Shown here: positions 717 to 9,446 of the stretch, piece after piece
How the letters are laid out: every line of letters begins with the position of its first letter
How positions within the stretch are numbered: position 1 is the first letter of the stretch
From: Bacilli bacterium
GTDB taxonomy: Bacteria > Bacillota_I > Bacilli_A > RFN20 > CAG-826
NCBI GenBank assembly: GCA_024408235.1
Contig: JAKSVF010000003.1
Span: 1-64,000, forward strand
Direction: 5' to 3'
Length of the DNA: 64,000 nucleotides
Translations under genes and position numbers: made by a program
Notes under the pieces: generated by a model
Told to the model about the DNA's origin: nothing
The model's database searches: none
What the model saw: the letters and a program-made list of their open reading frames with translations, nothing else

Positions 717-2765
717 TTAAACCCTTCTTTTAGGCGGGAGATATGCGTTTATATAAGAAGCCATTTGAATGCACTTATTCTTCTGTGCTTCGTTTTCGCT
801 TGATTCAGAAAGAAGCATGAGTTCGTTTCTCTTTTTCTCCATAACGTCATATAGATCACGAGTCTTGAGCTTTCCATGCGTTCCTTTTGACTCGATAACG
901 GCTTTTGTTAATTCTCCATACGCTTCAATTATGATGTCAATCGCTTCTGCTTTAACAAGATTCTCATGACTGACTGCGGCGGTTCTATCTCTCTTCAAGG
1001 TGTGGATGAGTCCACGGTGTCTTCCGTCTGCGGCAAATCTCATCAATGGGTCATAGAAGAGGCCTTTTGCGGCGTAAATGCAGATGAAGATCTCTAGACG
1101 GGCAAACATCATGGCAACGATGCAATCGATAAGCATGATGTTATATGGAAGCAGTGACTCTCCTGCAGCTTTTAAGCAATCTCTATAGTCTAGGAATGAG
1201 TGAATAACCGTTCCATTAACCTCAAAATCAAAGACGGTCAAGCCAAGGGTCGATAAAGCGGATGAGTAATTGTATATTGAGCTTCTGAAATCGGTATATG
1301 GAAGCATGGCGATTATGGATGATCCGATGATGAGGGTGACAATATATAGAAGGATATAGTTATACGCTTCAGTCTTGTCTGAATCTTCGACATCGACGAT
1401 TTCTCCGTGTCTAGCCATTTGATGGGTTGAGACAGTTCTATCGTTTTTGGATTTACTTCTCCAAGACCAGGCAAAGTCTTTAATGGCAATGCCAAATCTC
1501 CACTGCTTCACACCGCCTGCTGTTGAGCCTGTAGCGCCGCCTATAGACATAGCGAATATCGACAAGATAATCGCGAAGTCGCCTAAAGCTGCAAGCGAGC
1601 CTGTAGCAGGAGCAAGAGGTCCAGCGTTTGAATAGCCGGTTGTTGATAAAGCACAGACACTGTAGAAGAAGTTATATCTGAATGACTCTAGTATTGTCAT
1701 ATGATCGCTTCCGGCATAGGTGAGATAATCTCCATATAATCCGATGTTCTGGTTGATGTACATCCAAGTGCCCGCAGTTGCCATAAATGCGATTATTAAG
1801 ATGAAAATCACCGAGAATCTAAGCTCAAAATCCCTAAATGTCTGTAAAAAGCGTCTCTTTGCCCCACCCTTCTCTTTGGTTTTTGAGAAGATTGTGAAGA
1901 ACAAGAAATGAATGACGAATGAGGTTGAGCCAAGATACATCAATATCTCGAAGATGATTTCCATGGCTATTTGTCTTCCAAGACTTAAAGCCCCAGGTCC
2001 CACCTGCCAATATAAAAGCCCTTCGCCTCTAGTCGAGAATCCGCCTGTTGCAAGGCATGATATCGAGTGACAAAGCGCTTCAAACGGATCCAGTCCGACA
2101 ATCACAAGTCCAATCGTTCCTAAAGCGATATAGACGATATAGATAAGGAAGATCCATCTCGCGGTTTTAGCGATGTTAGGCAAAAGATGATCGTTATGAC
2201 CTTCAGCGGAGAACATCTTGGCGTTGTTCTTGTCGTTGATTAATGACGTGAAGATCAAGACGAGTCCAACTCCACCGACGAACTGCATCACTGCGCGGTG
2301 GAATAAGAAAACATGGGAAAACTCAAATCCCTGGCCTAAATAGCATTCCGTTGGGAAAACGGTCAAACCAGTTGTTGAATATCCTGACATAGCCTCAAAA
2401 AAGGATTCAGTGTATGACATGTTCATCTCACCATAAAGGGTAGAGACGTAGAACGGGAAGGCTCCTACTGCAACAGCGGAAAGCCACAAGAGAATGAGCA
2501 TTACAGATTCTTGGTTCTTATGAAGTTTTCCAGATTTTCTTCCAGCAAGGAAAATTAGATATAAAACCAAGCCGATTAGCAACGCTCCAACGCTAGGAAT
2601 AACGAAGTCCTTCCAGCATCCAGCTTCGCCTGGATAGAAGGCGAGGATAGCCAAAGGAAAAGAAGTTATGATGGCTTCCGCCACCATAAAGAGGCCAAGA
2701 TATCCCAATATCATTGGGAGACCGTTGACATATATCGTTTCTTTTCTCCTTTTGAATATCGACAT
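717..2765 (-). CDS. TrkH-type potassium uptake channel, paralogue 1
   Basis: Integral membrane potassium-translocating subunit of a Trk/Ktr system (682 residues). The four pore-loop signatures of the family are visible: SGYSTTGLTVF near residue 127, CLATGGFSTRG near 240, LSTTGYSNAGP near 375 and LSTLGLTVFDFE near 513. They sit between hydrophobic segments that fill the first 570 residues. After the last membrane segment is a hydrophilic tail of about 110 residues that ordinary TrkH proteins of 450-500 residues lack. It is last in an operon after a second TrkH gene and two RCK genes. It starts 8 bp after the neighbour's stop without a clear ribosome site, so it may depend on coupled translation. 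Confidence 0.9.
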   Translation of the reverse strand: MSIFKRRKETIYVNGLPMILGYLGLFMVAEAIITSFPLAILAFYPGEAGCWKDFVIPSVGALLIGLVLYLIFLAGRKSGKLHKNQESVMLILLWLSAVAVGAFPFYVSTLYGEMNMSYTESFFEAMSGYSTTGLTVFPTECYLGQGFEFSHVFLFHRAVMQFVGGVGLVLIFTSLINDKNNAKMFSAEGHNDHLLPNIAKTARWIFLIYIVYIALGTIGLVIVGLDPFEALCHSISCLATGGFSTRGEGLLYWQVGPGALSLGRQIAMEIIFEILMYLGSTSFVIHFLFFTIFSKTKEKGGAKRRFLQTFRDFELRFSVIFILIIAFMATAGTWMYINQNIGLYGDYLTYAGSDHMTILESFRYNFFYSVCALSTTGYSNAGPLAPATGSLAALGDFAIILSIFAMSIGGATGSTAGGVKQWRFGIAIKDFAWSWRSKSKNDRTVSTHQMARHGEIVDVEDSDKTEAYNYILLYIVTLIIGSSIIAMLPYTDFRSSIYNYSSALSTLGLTVFDFEVNGTVIHSFLDYRDCLKAAGESLLPYNIMLIDCIVAMMFARLEIFICIYAAKGLFYDPLMRFAADGRHRGLIHTLKRDRTAAVSHENLVKAEAIDIIIEAYGELTKAVIESKGTHGKLKTRDLYDVMEKKRNELMLLSESSENEAQKNKCIQMASYINAYLPPKRRV

Positions 2766-2773
2766 ATTGACTT

Positions 2774-4867
2774 TTAGATCTTTTTTCTAAGTTTTCTAGG
2801 AAGGAGCCAGTTAAGTTCGGCGGCCATTCCTAGATATCTTTCCTTTTCCCTCGCGTCATTTGAAATTGAAGATAACGATAGGTAATAATCACGTCTTGAG
2901 ACCAAGATTCTTCTAACGTCTGCGTTATTGAGCGTTGCGTGGTTTCCGTTCACCCTAACATTGGTCTCATAAAGGTTTTCGTATTCATCAATAACAGCGC
3001 TGATGGCTTCAGCTTTATCCATCTTGTTTGTTCTGATGGCAATCGATTTCTGTTCCTTAAGGAAATAGATGAGGCCTTTATATTTTCCAGTGACAATAAC
3101 GTTCCTGATTGGGTCATAGAAGAACGACTTGAATGCGAAGTAGCAAGCAAGAATTTCGAGACGTCCGAGAATCATGCCAACATCTATAATCGCTAGCATC
3201 AAATAATAACCGGTGGCATCGCCAGTTGTTGCAAGCAAAGCTTCTTTATACCCAGTAAACGAATAGACGGTTGTTGTTCCTACTTCAAAATCAAATAAGC
3301 CTAAGCCTGTGCCAGACAGGGCGGAGGCAAAGTTATAGACCGAGCTTCCGAAAGTTGTATATGGAAGAGCAAGGAGCGCGAGAGAGCCGACGAATAAAAC
3401 GCCAAGATACAAGAACGAATAGTTATAAGCGTCAGATTTGTCCGCATCGGAAATCTGTATTGTTTCTCCGTGATGTGTAATTGGGCTTGCCGATACTGTG
3501 CCATGGGTTACGAATCTAGATTTGACTGACCAATAGAACTCTTTAATAGCAACACCAAATCTATATTGCTTGATACCGCCACCTGTTGATCCGACTGCAC
3601 CACCGACGATCATGAGGAATACGGATGAGAGAACACTGACCTGTCCTAAAGCGGCAAGGCTTCCTGTGTTTGGACTTAAAGGGCCGCAGTTTGAATATCC
3701 GGTTGTAGTTAAGCAGGAGATGACGTTGAATAAGTTGTATCTGAGTGACTCACCGATGCTCAATGAGCCGTGAACATTCAAGTATTCAGTCATCAACTGA
3801 GGAGTTTCAAAAGCGTAAACGAAGGTGTATGCGCTTGTGATGAAAGTCACTAAAATGATGACAATCGCAGTGAATTTTATCTCAAAATCCTTGAATAACG
3901 CGACAAATCTCTCCCCAACCACTCCTTTTTTGTGTGGTTTTGCGAATAATGTGAAGATTAAGAAATGAATGACAAAGCTCGTTGCTCCTAAAAGCATCAA
4001 AATTTCAAAAACGGCTTCCATTGCAATTTGACGGCCAAACGAGAGAGGCTGTGTGATGATGTTTCCAATGACATCCGTCTGACCCATTTGCCAATACTGA
4101 AGACCATTTGCACGAGTTGAAAAGCCACCTGTAGCAAGGCATGAGATTGAATGGCATAGAGCTTCAAATGGGTCCATGCCGATTATCCAAAGCGCACCAG
4201 CGCCGAGAAGAATATAAACGGTGTAAATCAAGAAGATCCATCTAGCGGTCTTGCCCATGTTTGGGAGAAGGTGGTCGTTATGGCCTTCTGCAAAGAATAA
4301 TTTGAGATTGTATTTGTCACTGACGATTGATGTGACGACAAGGACGAGTCCAACGCCTCCAATGAACTGCATAAGAGCACGATGGAACAGGAATACATGG
4401 GCAAATTGATACTGAGCACTAGGGATATCCGTTAAGAATCCGTCATATACGGTTAAACCAGTTGCCGAGTATCCGGACATCGATTCAAAGAACGACTCCC
4501 AGAAGTCCATTGAAAGTCTTCCTGATTGTCCTGATTTTCCAACAAGCGAATCGATAAAGAACGGCATTGCGCCCAAAATGATCGCAGAAATCCACAAAAG
4601 GAATAAAAGGAGGGAGTCATCTCTCTTACCGAATTTTCCTTTTTTGCATCCAGCAATCAACGTGAAGAACATCAATAAACCGATAGCGATACCGCCTGCT
4701 GCAGGGATTACAAAGTCCATCCAGCAGCCCCACTCTGCAGGATAGAAAGCTAAAATGGTCAAAGGTAAAAGAGTAAGGAATCCCTCAACTGCAATAAAGA
4801 GTCCAAGGTATCCAAACAAAAGACGGAATCCGTTTGCTGTTTTCTTTTCCTTTTTGAAGATGGCCAT
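2774..4867 (-). CDS. TrkH-type potassium uptake channel, paralogue 2
   Basis: Second TrkH paralogue (697 residues) of the operon. Pore loops are SGYSATGLTVY, CLATGGFSTRA, CLTTTGYSNCGP and SGTGLGLFDFE. The fourth loop differs from paralogue 1 (SGTGLG against STLGLT), so the two channels may differ in selectivity or affinity. It has the same long soluble C-terminal tail. Its start codon overlaps the stop of the upstream RCK gene by one base (4867), a strong sign of coupled translation. Two TrkH copies beside two RCK subunits suggest either two channels sharing gating subunits or a heterodimeric channel. The family is clear; the arrangement is inference. Confidence 0.9.
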   Translation of the reverse strand: MAIFKKEKKTANGFRLLFGYLGLFIAVEGFLTLLPLTILAFYPAEWGCWMDFVIPAAGGIAIGLLMFFTLIAGCKKGKFGKRDDSLLLFLLWISAIILGAMPFFIDSLVGKSGQSGRLSMDFWESFFESMSGYSATGLTVYDGFLTDIPSAQYQFAHVFLFHRALMQFIGGVGLVLVVTSIVSDKYNLKLFFAEGHNDHLLPNMGKTARWIFLIYTVYILLGAGALWIIGMDPFEALCHSISCLATGGFSTRANGLQYWQMGQTDVIGNIITQPLSFGRQIAMEAVFEILMLLGATSFVIHFLIFTLFAKPHKKGVVGERFVALFKDFEIKFTAIVIILVTFITSAYTFVYAFETPQLMTEYLNVHGSLSIGESLRYNLFNVISCLTTTGYSNCGPLSPNTGSLAALGQVSVLSSVFLMIVGGAVGSTGGGIKQYRFGVAIKEFYWSVKSRFVTHGTVSASPITHHGETIQISDADKSDAYNYSFLYLGVLFVGSLALLALPYTTFGSSVYNFASALSGTGLGLFDFEVGTTTVYSFTGYKEALLATTGDATGYYLMLAIIDVGMILGRLEILACYFAFKSFFYDPIRNVIVTGKYKGLIYFLKEQKSIAIRTNKMDKAEAISAVIDEYENLYETNVRVNGNHATLNNADVRRILVSRRDYYLSLSSISNDAREKERYLGMAAELNWLLPRKLRKKI

Positions 4868-5559
4868 TATTTCTCTCTTGTCATGAACTTTCTAAGTTCG
4901 TCAACGTCTTTTCTGTGACAGACACAGTAGACTGAGTCGTTTGCGTGTAAAACGGTTAAACCTTTAGCCATTTCAATGGTTACAGGCTCACCGCTGCCGG
5001 CGTTTGGTCTGAAACGTTTTACGCAGGCAATAGTTGCGATTGGAGGACATTTGATCTCCATGATTGTTTTTTCGCAGATCTCATAGTTTGAATAGACCTG
5101 GAATTCGAAAGCCTGAACTTCATCTTCGATTGTGATGACTTTAAGGTTTCCGTTGATATCTGATTCGTTTCTGATGTTCTCAACTAACTGGAGTGTTGAA
5201 CAGATGACTGAATCGATACCAAGTGATTTATAAACCTCAACGTTTGATGGGTTTGTAACTAAGCAGATGGTTCTAGAAACATAGAATGAGTTAGCAGCCA
5301 TGCAGCATGCAGCATAGTTGTCTGTGTCTTTTGTGGATAAAGCGATGAAAATATCAGCGTTTGTGATGTTTGCTTTTTCAAGAACATGGAAGTTCCAAGG
5401 ATTACCGACGATGACGTCATGTCTTTTGGTCTTTGAGAATTCATTAGCGAATTCTTTGTTGCTGTTGATGACGATTAATTTGTTTCCGTCACGGTTGAAA
5501 GCGTCGAAGATGTATGAAGCTTCATTAGTACCGTTTGCGATTACGATTGTTCTAGCCAT
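4867..5559 (-). CDS. TrkA/KtrA-type RCK subunit with degenerate nucleotide-binding motif
   Basis: Cytosolic gating subunit of the Trk system (230 residues). It contains an RCK_N (KTN) Rossmann domain at about 1-130 and an RCK_C domain at about 135-225, the usual length for KtrA. The glycine motif GxGxxG that binds NAD(H) or ATP is not intact: the first strand is followed by IANGTNEASYIF. The RCK_C domain is present and is where c-di-AMP binds in Firmicute KtrA/CpaA proteins. Start and stop overlap its neighbours by one base each, so the four genes form one tight operon. It probably works with the RCK_N-only protein upstream. Confidence 0.85.
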   Translation of the reverse strand: MARTIVIANGTNEASYIFDAFNRDGNKLIVINSNKEFANEFSKTKRHDVIVGNPWNFHVLEKANITNADIFIALSTKDTDNYAACCMAANSFYVSRTICLVTNPSNVEVYKSLGIDSVICSTLQLVENIRNESDINGNLKVITIEDEVQAFEFQVYSNYEICEKTIMEIKCPPIATIACVKRFRPNAGSGEPVTIEMAKGLTVLHANDSVYCVCHRKDVDELRKFMTREK

Positions 5560-5981
5560 TAGTCTTCTCCTCCTACTAATTCGTTGTATTTTTCAACCGA
5601 TAAGTTGAATGGGTAAATTGTCTGGACTGAGTTATAGCCGAAAAGCAATGGAGCCATATCGCTGTTATCAAGACGCACATAGATATGTTTGATGCGGTAT
5701 CTAACTTCTGATAACTGAGCTAAGAAAAGATTTAGGCAGTCATCGCCTGTTGCAATGATGACTCTATCGACTTCTTTGATATGACATTTATTTTCTAAAG
5801 TATCAACGTCAGAAGCGTCACCGATGATTTTCTCTCCAGAGAACTGATCGGAATCGTTAAGACGCTCAAAAGCGCCACTAAATTGGTCTACAACGTAAAC
5901 GTTGTATTTTTCTTCTGCGTAACGGTTAGCAAGGGCAGATCCAAGCTTTCCGCATCCAATAATGAGTACTCTATTTGCCAT
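5559..5981 (-). CDS. RCK_N-only TrkA-like subunit
   Basis: Short RCK protein (140 residues) with a complete Rossmann nucleotide site: VLIIGCGKLGSALA near residue 5 and an acidic residue ending the second strand (VVDQ). It stops after one RCK_N domain, with no RCK_C domain, while the next gene has RCK_C but a degenerate nucleotide site. Together they look like complementary halves, comparable in layout to the mycobacterial CeoB/CeoC tandem. First gene of the Trk operon, with an AGGAGG-like site just upstream of the ATG at 5981. No frameshift is visible between it and the next gene. Confidence 0.85.
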   Translation of the reverse strand: MANRVLIIGCGKLGSALANRYAEEKYNVYVVDQFSGAFERLNDSDQFSGEKIIGDASDVDTLENKCHIKEVDRVIIATGDDCLNLFLAQLSEVRYRIKHIYVRLDNSDMAPLLFGYNSVQTIYPFNLSVEKYNELVGGED

Positions 5982-6017
5982 GTTTTACCTCCTTGGATAC
6001 TGCGAAAGTATACTCCC

Positions 6018-7359: not shown

Positions 7360-7388
7360 ATAAAAAGCGTTGGGTTTTGCCAACGCTT
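7360..7388 (-). terminator. Rho-independent terminator after the mechanosensitive channel gene
   Basis: A perfect 9-bp stem, AAGCGTTGG (7365-7373) with CCAACGCTT (7380-7388), is followed on the minus strand by TTTTAT. It separates the channel gene from the Sir2 gene. Confidence 0.8.
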
Positions 7389-7397
7389 AATCTTAGA

Positions 7398-8645
7398 TTA
7401 ATTATCGTGATGTGTGACTTTGTAGCCTTTAGAAGACGAATCGGTAGAAGAAACGATTCCATCCTGCTGCAACTGACCAATCACCTTTGCTGCGGATGTG
7501 AATGAGAGGGCGAATTCCTTTTGGAGTTTACTGACATTGCAATATTCCCAAGACATAACCTTCTCGATTATTCTTCCGTATTCATCTTCCGGCTGAGTTT
7601 TCTTGATTGGCTTTTCTTCTTCGATCTCAGCAACACCAGTGATTTCAGGAAGCGGTTCCTTCTGGCTATCATGGAAAACCACCTGCTTGAATGGGATGTT
7701 GATGTTGTGTTTATCGAACATGATTTTGATTGCGCGATTAAGATCTCTTCCAACTTGGAATCTGTTCTCCTCTTTGCATTTAGCAATGAATTTAAGTTCA
7801 ACTCCAGATTCACCAAGTTCAGAGACTCCGAGGTAAATAACATCGCCAATGCAGTTAGGAATTGTTGAGTTTAAGTCCTTGATTTCTGATTTTATAACGG
7901 CCTCGACCACTCTGATATCAGCGCTGTATTCAATCTGAACTGCAGAAACTGCAACTGAGAGATTGTTCGTCATATTGATGAGGGTGCGGATGTCTGAGTT
8001 ATTAATAACCTTTACGTTGCCACCGGTATCTACGAGCTGGGTAGTTCTAATACCGATTTCTGTAACCGTTCCTCGGAAATCATCGATGACGATGATGTCA
8101 CCTACGTCAAAGAGTTTTTCAAACACGATGAAGATACCTGCGATAACATCTTCGATAAGTGGCTGAACTCCAAGACCAACGATGATGGAGATGATACCAG
8201 CTGATGCAAGAAGCGTGACTCCATCAACTCCTAAAGCACCGAGTACAGCGAATATGACAATTACTGCAGCGAGGTATTTAACGAACGATGAGAGTAAGCT
8301 CATCAACGCTTTTCTTTTAACATAAGGGGTTGATACGTAAATGACGAATCTAATTGTGTTAGAAAGAGTCATTAATACGATAAGAATGGAAGCCACTCTC
8401 AAGATGATTGCGGCATCAGGCACCCCTTCGATGGACGCCAAATCCCAGAACTTAAAAAAGTTCATGGACTGATAAATCCACTTCACGCTTGCAGGGAATA
8501 TCAATCCTCCTAAAAGCATGACGGTTGTGAATACTAAGCCGAAAATAAGAGTGATGATGAATACAGGGCTGAGTTTGTTCTTCTCGGCTTTGATTCTCTT
8601 CTTAGCTTCGATTGTGTCTTTCTTGATGTCTTCGTTGATCTTCAT
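7398..8645 (-). CDS. MscS-type mechanosensitive channel with C-terminal FtsK-gamma-like winged helix
   Basis: Small-conductance mechanosensitive channel (415 residues). Hydrophobic segments lie near 28-52, 78-103, 112-135 and 140-172. The MscS pore and beta domain follow, with LGVQPLIEDVIAGIFIVFEK, VGDIIVIDDFRGTVTEI and VKVINNSD at about 165-225, and a soluble alpha/beta part to about 310. After a charged linker (PLPEITGVAEIEEEKPIKK) the last 63 residues match FtsK gamma domains: EDEYGRIIEKV, VSKLQKEFALSF, SAAKVIGQLQQDGIV, then a short wing. Ordinary MscS proteins end before this. In FtsK this domain reads KOPS DNA sites, so here it could bind DNA or be a structural module. Both domains are read directly; the fusion's function is unknown. 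Confidence 0.85.
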   Translation of the reverse strand: MKINEDIKKDTIEAKKRIKAEKNKLSPVFIITLIFGLVFTTVMLLGGLIFPASVKWIYQSMNFFKFWDLASIEGVPDAAIILRVASILIVLMTLSNTIRFVIYVSTPYVKRKALMSLLSSFVKYLAAVIVIFAVLGALGVDGVTLLASAGIISIIVGLGVQPLIEDVIAGIFIVFEKLFDVGDIIVIDDFRGTVTEIGIRTTQLVDTGGNVKVINNSDIRTLINMTNNLSVAVSAVQIEYSADIRVVEAVIKSEIKDLNSTIPNCIGDVIYLGVSELGESGVELKFIAKCKEENRFQVGRDLNRAIKIMFDKHNINIPFKQVVFHDSQKEPLPEITGVAEIEEEKPIKKTQPEDEYGRIIEKVMSWEYCNVSKLQKEFALSFTSAAKVIGQLQQDGIVSSTDSSSKGYKVTHHDN

Positions 8646-8669: not shown

Positions 8670-9446
8670 TTACATATTTATTGGGGATGTTCCAATTAAT
8701 GGCACTTTGATTGTTTCTCCGTCGTAGCGAGTCGTAATTCCAAATGTGATGACTGAATAATTGATAGATGCGACGGCAGGAACTTCAATTTCGAAATCTT
8801 CGAGAACTTCAGCCTCGCATAGAGGAGTGCCGTTATCATAGAAATAAACAGGTAGTGTTTGATAGAAAAGAATTGTTTCGAAATTGGTATACCCATCAAA
8901 GTTTGATGTTCCAGTTGACAGCACGTATTTAGTCCCAGAGATTTCGCAAGACGCGGTAAGTTCACCCCTATCGGCATCAATATCGGTCTCATCCTCAATG
9001 ACGTTTTGGTTCGCTTCAGTTATGCCAAGCTTATATGTCCCCGAGAACAGTGGCAAAGTATCGATATAATAGTTTCCTTCTTTCTCATAAACCACAGATG
9101 AGTAATCAAAATCTCCGTGAATTAAGGATATATCCTGTATTTCCTCAATGTTTTCAGGGAGATTAATGAGAATCTGACCATTGTCATCTTTCTTGGAATT
9201 CGAGATAAGGACAACGCTTATTGCGCCAACACTTGTAACGCCAATTGCTAAGGCGGCGACAATAGTTTTCATATTGTTGCTCTTCCTTCTTGCTCTCGAT
9301 TTAGTTGCATGATCTCTATTCAATGTCGAAAGAACGTACTTGGCATCTTGATATTCATCGCCAAGTCCGGGAGTAGGATCGCTCTTGATTTCCTCGTAGG
9401 AGTATCCAAATTCTTTTTCAGTTTCGCTCTTTGAATCGTATGGCAT
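8670..9446 (-). CDS. Single-pass membrane protein of unknown function
   Basis: A 258-residue protein not recognised as a known family. The N-terminal 55 residues are hydrophilic and probably cytosolic, followed by a basic stretch (KSRARRKSNN) and one hydrophobic helix at about 59-82 (TIVAALAIGVTSVGAISVVL). The remaining 175 residues are acidic, rich in beta-forming sequence and presumably extracellular. It lies 24 bp upstream of the MscS-like gene in the same orientation, so cotranscription is likely. No catalytic motif is visible. Confidence 0.6.
   Translation of the reverse strand: MPYDSKSETEKEFGYSYEEIKSDPTPGLGDEYQDAKYVLSTLNRDHATKSRARRKSNNMKTIVAALAIGVTSVGAISVVLISNSKKDDNGQILINLPENIEEIQDISLIHGDFDYSSVVYEKEGNYYIDTLPLFSGTYKLGITEANQNVIEDETDIDADRGELTASCEISGTKYVLSTGTSNFDGYTNFETILFYQTLPVYFYDNGTPLCEAEVLEDFEIEVPAVASINYSVITFGITTRYDGETIKVPLIGTSPINM

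Follow-up and report, generated by a model that had tools for sequence, protein, structure and literature searches.

An MscS-type channel ending in an FtsK-gamma-like winged helix in two closely related uncultured Bacilli

Channels of the MscS superfamily are known for additions at their N and C termini, including ligand-binding domains, and some members require stimuli other than tension (PMC4560390). The solved structures closest to the channel described here are 3udc and 3t9n, and a pore helix, a beta domain and cage domains are common to it and to E. coli MscS (2oau, 2vv5), YnaI, YbiO and MscK. To our knowledge, no member of the superfamily has a winged helix. The gamma domain of FtsK, SpoIIIE and SftA (PF09397; 2j5p, 2ve8, 2ve9) is, in the contexts studied, a cytoplasmic DNA-binding winged helix (PMC2680272, PMC4744071), and in E. 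coli FtsK the residues R1300, E1303 and E1306 have been shown to read KOPS (PMC2680272). Gamma has also been described on the small terminase of phages Sam46 and Sam112 (PMC8190038).

The window (the whole stretch of 64,000 nucleotides that was analysed) contains a gene in which these two families meet in a single open frame with no internal stop. The tail shares the fold and the sequence family of the FtsK, SpoIIIE and SftA gamma domains and, as in those proteins, forms the very end of the chain after a flexible segment; FtsK and SpoIIIE are membrane-anchored as well. The features of the locus are as follows.

8670..9446, minus strand: 258-aa single-TM protein, about 25 bp upstream of the fusion (ORF list; no Pfam match)
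7398..8645, minus strand: MscS-FtsKgamma fusion gene, 415 aa (ORF list, Pfam, orthologue in a second species, G027)
8415..8645, minus strand: Lys-rich N terminus and predicted extra first TM helix, residues 1-77 (AlphaFold2 helix 2-49; alignments to MscS structures in the PDB start only at about residue 66)
7668..8414, minus strand: MscS core, residues 78-326, with TM helices, pore helix, and beta and alpha-beta cage domains (Pfam, phmmer, Foldseek)
7590..7667, minus strand: charged flexible linker, residues 327-352 (pLDDT < 50 at 321-353)
7401..7589, minus strand: FtsK-gamma-like winged helix, residues 353-415 (Pfam, AlphaFold2, Foldseek, VIA)
7464..7502, minus strand: recognition helix, residues 382-394, with K387, G390 and Q393 at the KOPS-reading positions and S384 replacing the family Arg
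7416..7454, minus strand: wing, residues 398-410, with the SSKG-x-KV motif retained from the family FtsK
7365..7388, minus strand: intrinsic-terminator-like hairpin with a T run, directly 3' of the fusion (consensus match only; the region has 3 such hairpins, with 2.1 expected by chance)
720-5984, minus strand: K+ uptake genes in a tandem array downstream of the channel gene, a pair of adjacent TrkH-like genes and two TrkA-like genes (order conserved in G027)

A preliminary description had proposed an MscS channel body with an FtsK-gamma domain at its C terminus, and both assignments are borne out. The Pfam families MS_channel_2nd (PF00924; E 6.8e-14, residues 163-226) and MS_channel_3rd (PF21082; E 4.7e-5, residues 236-317) match above their curated cut-offs, in agreement with phmmer (1e-30 to PDB 3udc for the MscS part) and with the MscS structures retrieved by Foldseek. 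By its pore helix, beta domain and cage domains the protein belongs to the MscS superfamily; homology to other MscS channels suggests that it forms a homoheptamer, and it may be gated by tension. FtsK_gamma (PF09397) matches residues 356-405 with E 6.4e-7, at a whole-protein score of 29.4 bits that is slightly below the curated 30.6, while the tail alone scores 33.1 bits (E 4.6e-8), above that cut-off. In a six-frame PF09397 scan of the fusion's own genome, the tail ranked second and over the cut-off (32.7 bits), behind the true FtsK (47.8 bits; contig C17), with whose gamma domain it is 44% identical. A gamma-domain match on the channel well above chance is confirmed. Pfam found no FtsK_SpoIIIE RecA-like motor with alpha domain in the fusion, and the real FtsK is a separate ORF of 937 aa.

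The tail was modelled with AlphaFold2 from its own sequence and 11 relatives, the MscS and gamma parts being predicted separately. The model (mean pLDDT 88) has the order H-beta-H-H-beta-beta, with a helix at 3-11, a short strand, helices at 19-26 and 30-42 and a two-strand wing at 46-58 (tail numbering); the recognition helix (helix 3) and the wing, both expected if the assignment to gamma was right, are thus present. The top eleven PDB matches in Foldseek were all FtsK gamma (2j5p, 2ve8, 2ve9; probability 1.00, TM ~0.8), as were the best matches in VIA (Z 9.4 across 59 residues, rmsd 1.9). The winged helices of eS25, MntR and Hop1 score close behind, and the tail was assigned to gamma by sequence because the winged helix is a common fold with other close structural matches. 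A full-length model of moderate overall confidence (pLDDT 69) gives an MscS body, with MscS structures as best Foldseek matches (3t9n at 4.5e-14), then disorder over the linker and then the same winged helix. The modelling suggests one TM segment more at the N terminus than in E. coli MscS, and positive charges point to a cytoplasmic location of both termini. Compared with known MscS channels, the fusion would therefore add an N-terminal TM helix, and its linker and winged helix replace a short tail.

An orthologue is present in G027 ('Bacillales bacterium UBA1744', DCHU01000029), a second species of the same genus, with 80% identity over residues 1-414 and a tail scoring 36.2 bits against FtsK_gamma; the two carriers are closely related uncultured Bacilli. 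Between them the MscS core is 90% identical, the linker is of equal length and 42% identical, and in both genomes FtsK, with a gamma domain, is encoded by a gene of its own. The gene order TrkH-TrkH-TrkA-TrkA-DUF5662-Sir2-fusion-258aa is common to both species (Sir2, the second TrkH and the second TrkA being named from sequence reading and similarity), and the orthologue of the 258-aa protein that precedes the fusion in G027 is 54% identical. The fusion is real and maintained. It is probably co-transcribed with the upstream 258-aa gene, since the terminator-like hairpin follows the fusion, and the nearby TrkH and TrkA genes would fit an osmotic role of the channel. Across this taxonomic order, the gene immediately ahead of an MscS gene often encodes a fast-evolving protein with one TM segment and an outer part that seems rich in beta structure (L087:12135-13763, L088:10488-12161, L089:4594-6906 and window 8670-9446). 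The mutual similarity of these proteins is weak, and they are possible accessory subunits.

The wider distribution of the architecture, which the preliminary description had left for a broader search, proved to be narrow. Among the matches listed, the fusion was found only in its own genome (G000) and in G027, both in 224 genomes of the family with the tail as query and in 279 genomes of the order with the full protein. Samples of the class (395 genomes) and phylum (392) gave no further fusion, nor did the plasmids, phages and viral contigs searched, the 64-aa tail query being less sensitive outside the family, where distant fusions could escape. The architecture thus recurs in one second species and nowhere else in the samples searched, and is so far confined to one narrow lineage. 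Most MscS-sized or short ORFs with gamma were, when read, FtsK, often cut by contig ends; two ORFs of the phylum sample were left out of that reading (94 aa in G652 and 515 aa in G644). In the other MscS proteins of the family, the C terminus is a short K/E-rich tail of unrelated sequence (e.g. ...EFVEEQKELSKDI), and the nearest unfused MscS checked show about 46-48% identity and are located in different neighbourhoods. In the gamma-domain tree the two fusions pair (100/99), and no FtsK is singled out as the source of the tail.

Gamma-like sequences were also encountered on other proteins of the family. In G010, a 145-aa protein (L101:3161-3595, plus strand) combines a RelB antitoxin (Pfam 2.1e-13) with FtsK_gamma (34.0 bits, over the cut-off), and its gene is directly followed by one for a 215-aa protein with no Pfam match. 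A 126-aa protein in G129 (L102:2544-2921, minus strand) is gamma-like and zinc-ribbon-like, with a sub-threshold gamma match, and a 685-aa protein in G053 (L103:2869-4923, minus strand) has a weak sub-threshold gamma match and an N terminus that is PIN-like by eye. Together with the phage terminase, these occurrences on the RelB antitoxin and other family proteins indicate that gamma behaves as a mobile module. Its reuse on an unrelated protein is shared by the fusion, the Sam46/Sam112 terminase and the G010 antitoxin, although the terminase and RelB hosts are DNA-binding proteins and the host here is a membrane channel. A different extension of MscS was seen in the fusion's own genome (L042:2609-6196, minus strand) and at L047 and L048, where the channel ends a protein of ~1200 aa with a large N-terminal region, apparently of a double extracytoplasmic sensor type and unrecognised by Pfam. 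A DegV-like gene adjoins this MscS gene in all three genomes seen.

The DNA-facing surface of the tail has diverged from that of FtsK. Aligned to 2j5p with phmmer, the equivalents of R1300, E1303 and E1306 in the fusion are Lys387, Gly390 and Gln393, whereas the FtsK gamma of the same genome has K, K and Q. Of the 12 family FtsK gammas inspected, 11 have Arg where E. coli has R1297 and the other has Lys; the fusion has Ser384 at that site, and its orthologue in the sister species has Thr. The tail has kept its fold-core positions, K387 and the SSKG-x-KV motif of the wing. Over a matched 43-residue core the two species share 31 residues in the fused gamma against 42 in the FtsK gamma (Fisher p 0.0016), and within the recognition helix 9/13 against 13/13. 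The fused domain is thus less constrained than the FtsK gamma, whose genomic sites are fixed, and probably no longer reads KOPS. A relaxed or altered specificity predicts such drift of the helix between species while that of FtsK stays fixed, and the changes observed are 4/13 and 0/13, respectively. Compared with FtsK, the fusion lacks the motor domain, has changed both the KOPS residues and a near-invariant Arg, and evolves much faster than the FtsK gamma. Among the family FtsK gammas, including that of the own FtsK (L041:2326-5139, minus strand), the positions of R1300, E1303 and E1306 are mostly K, K/A/S/N/E and mostly Q, and these residue changes suggest that the chromosomal guide motif of the family probably differs from KOPS GGGNAGGG.

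Faster evolution is not accompanied by a complete loss of constraint. In the two-species comparison pN/pS was 0.38 for the tail (bootstrap 0.22-0.64; 0/2000 replicates at or above 1), about 0.49 for the linker and 0.095 for the channel core; these ratios are coarse, as they come from only two known fusion sequences whose synonymous sites are near saturation, so that synonymous change is underestimated and pN/pS overstated. The tail is under purifying selection and, with a ratio clearly below 1, it is probably functional.

A lineage-specific gene fusion would have placed a copy of the FtsK gamma winged helix on the cytoplasmic end of an MscS-type channel, and heptameric assembly would then hang seven winged helices on tethers of about 30 residues below the cage. 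The reading tentatively favoured here is that the tail is a tether or contact domain with weak, avidity-dependent binding to nucleic acid, kept as a contact to nucleoid DNA, its sequence preference relaxed or altered relative to the FtsK parent. Such contact might anchor or place the channel close to DNA, or adjust how it inactivates, with no reading of KOPS polarity; any feedback of DNA contact on gating is speculation. DNA tethering of this kind is possible. The more specific proposal that the seven winged helices bind DNA and thereby link the position or compaction of the nucleoid to turgor-driven gating, or to where the channel sits, is unlikely. The net charge of the tail, -2 in this species and +1 in its sister (FtsK gamma is +2 in both), tempers the DNA hypothesis, and the winged-helix fold also serves non-DNA roles, as in the ribosomal protein eS25, a VIA match to the tail.

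With the family Arg gone at the R1297 position and Gly at that of E1303, DNA binding may have been lost altogether. A tail that does not bind DNA could dock on a protein, such as a divisome or Xer component, and so recruit the channel to the site of division or modulate it there. FtsK gamma contacts XerD directly (PMC4744071), the XerD-gamma structure 5dcf is among the matches, and in E. coli FtsZ is a binding partner of the cytoplasmic MscS domain (PMC4440785); the loss of basic and KOPS residues from the DNA-facing helix is also in keeping with such a role. However, the surface positions of H1, H2 and the H2-H3 turn vary between the species, leaving no obvious conserved docking face, and protein docking is regarded as a credible possibility that is nonetheless somewhat unlikely.

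Alternatively, the tail could be a loosely constrained passenger that has no specific ligand, a folded knob that is either close to neutral or acts through its bulk beside the portals of the cage. Its roughly fourfold faster evolution than the core relative to synonymous change, the restriction of the fusion to two species and the short unrelated tails of the other MscS proteins of the family would all fit, and MscS inactivation responds to the cytoplasmic cage and to crowding, according to Rowe 2014 as cited in PMC4440785. Against this, the bootstrap range lies wholly below 1, and the fold, the linker length and the wing motif have been kept despite substantial synonymous divergence, making a mere passenger rather improbable.

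The preliminary description had further supposed that the tail could read KOPS sites and sense chromosome position, binding the polarised octamers of FtsK and reporting to the membrane. Homology to a KOPS-reading domain, including the identity to the own FtsK gamma, is what speaks for this, but neither supposition is supported, in view of the K/G/Q equivalents (K/K/Q in the own FtsK), the replacement of the near-invariant Arg by Ser or Thr, and a recognition helix that drifts between species in which the FtsK helix is fixed; a KOPS reader is very improbable. An assembly or annotation artefact, that is, a chimeric contig or a read-through of two genes, has a negligible chance of explaining the fusion: only MAG data underlie it, but an independent MAG of another species has the same full-length frame in the same synteny, ruling out a chimeric contig, the frame is open throughout and coding-type selection spans the junction.

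Among the publications searched, none combines 'mechanosensitive channel' and 'FtsK gamma', in line with the earlier statement that no description of the pairing was known, and an MscS channel with an FtsK-gamma winged helix apparently has not been described so far. We also know of no single protein that directly links membrane tension to the chromosome in any bacterium. If the tail, as tentatively favoured here, binds DNA, the fusion would be a natural single-protein tether from a tension-gated channel to the chromosome, and direct crosstalk between turgor sensing and the state of the nucleoid would become testable. Even if it does not bind DNA, the sequence-reading domain of FtsK has escaped its motor and been reused on a channel, an antitoxin and a phage terminase, and the sister pair of fusions shows such a domain evolving once freed from its many genomic sites.
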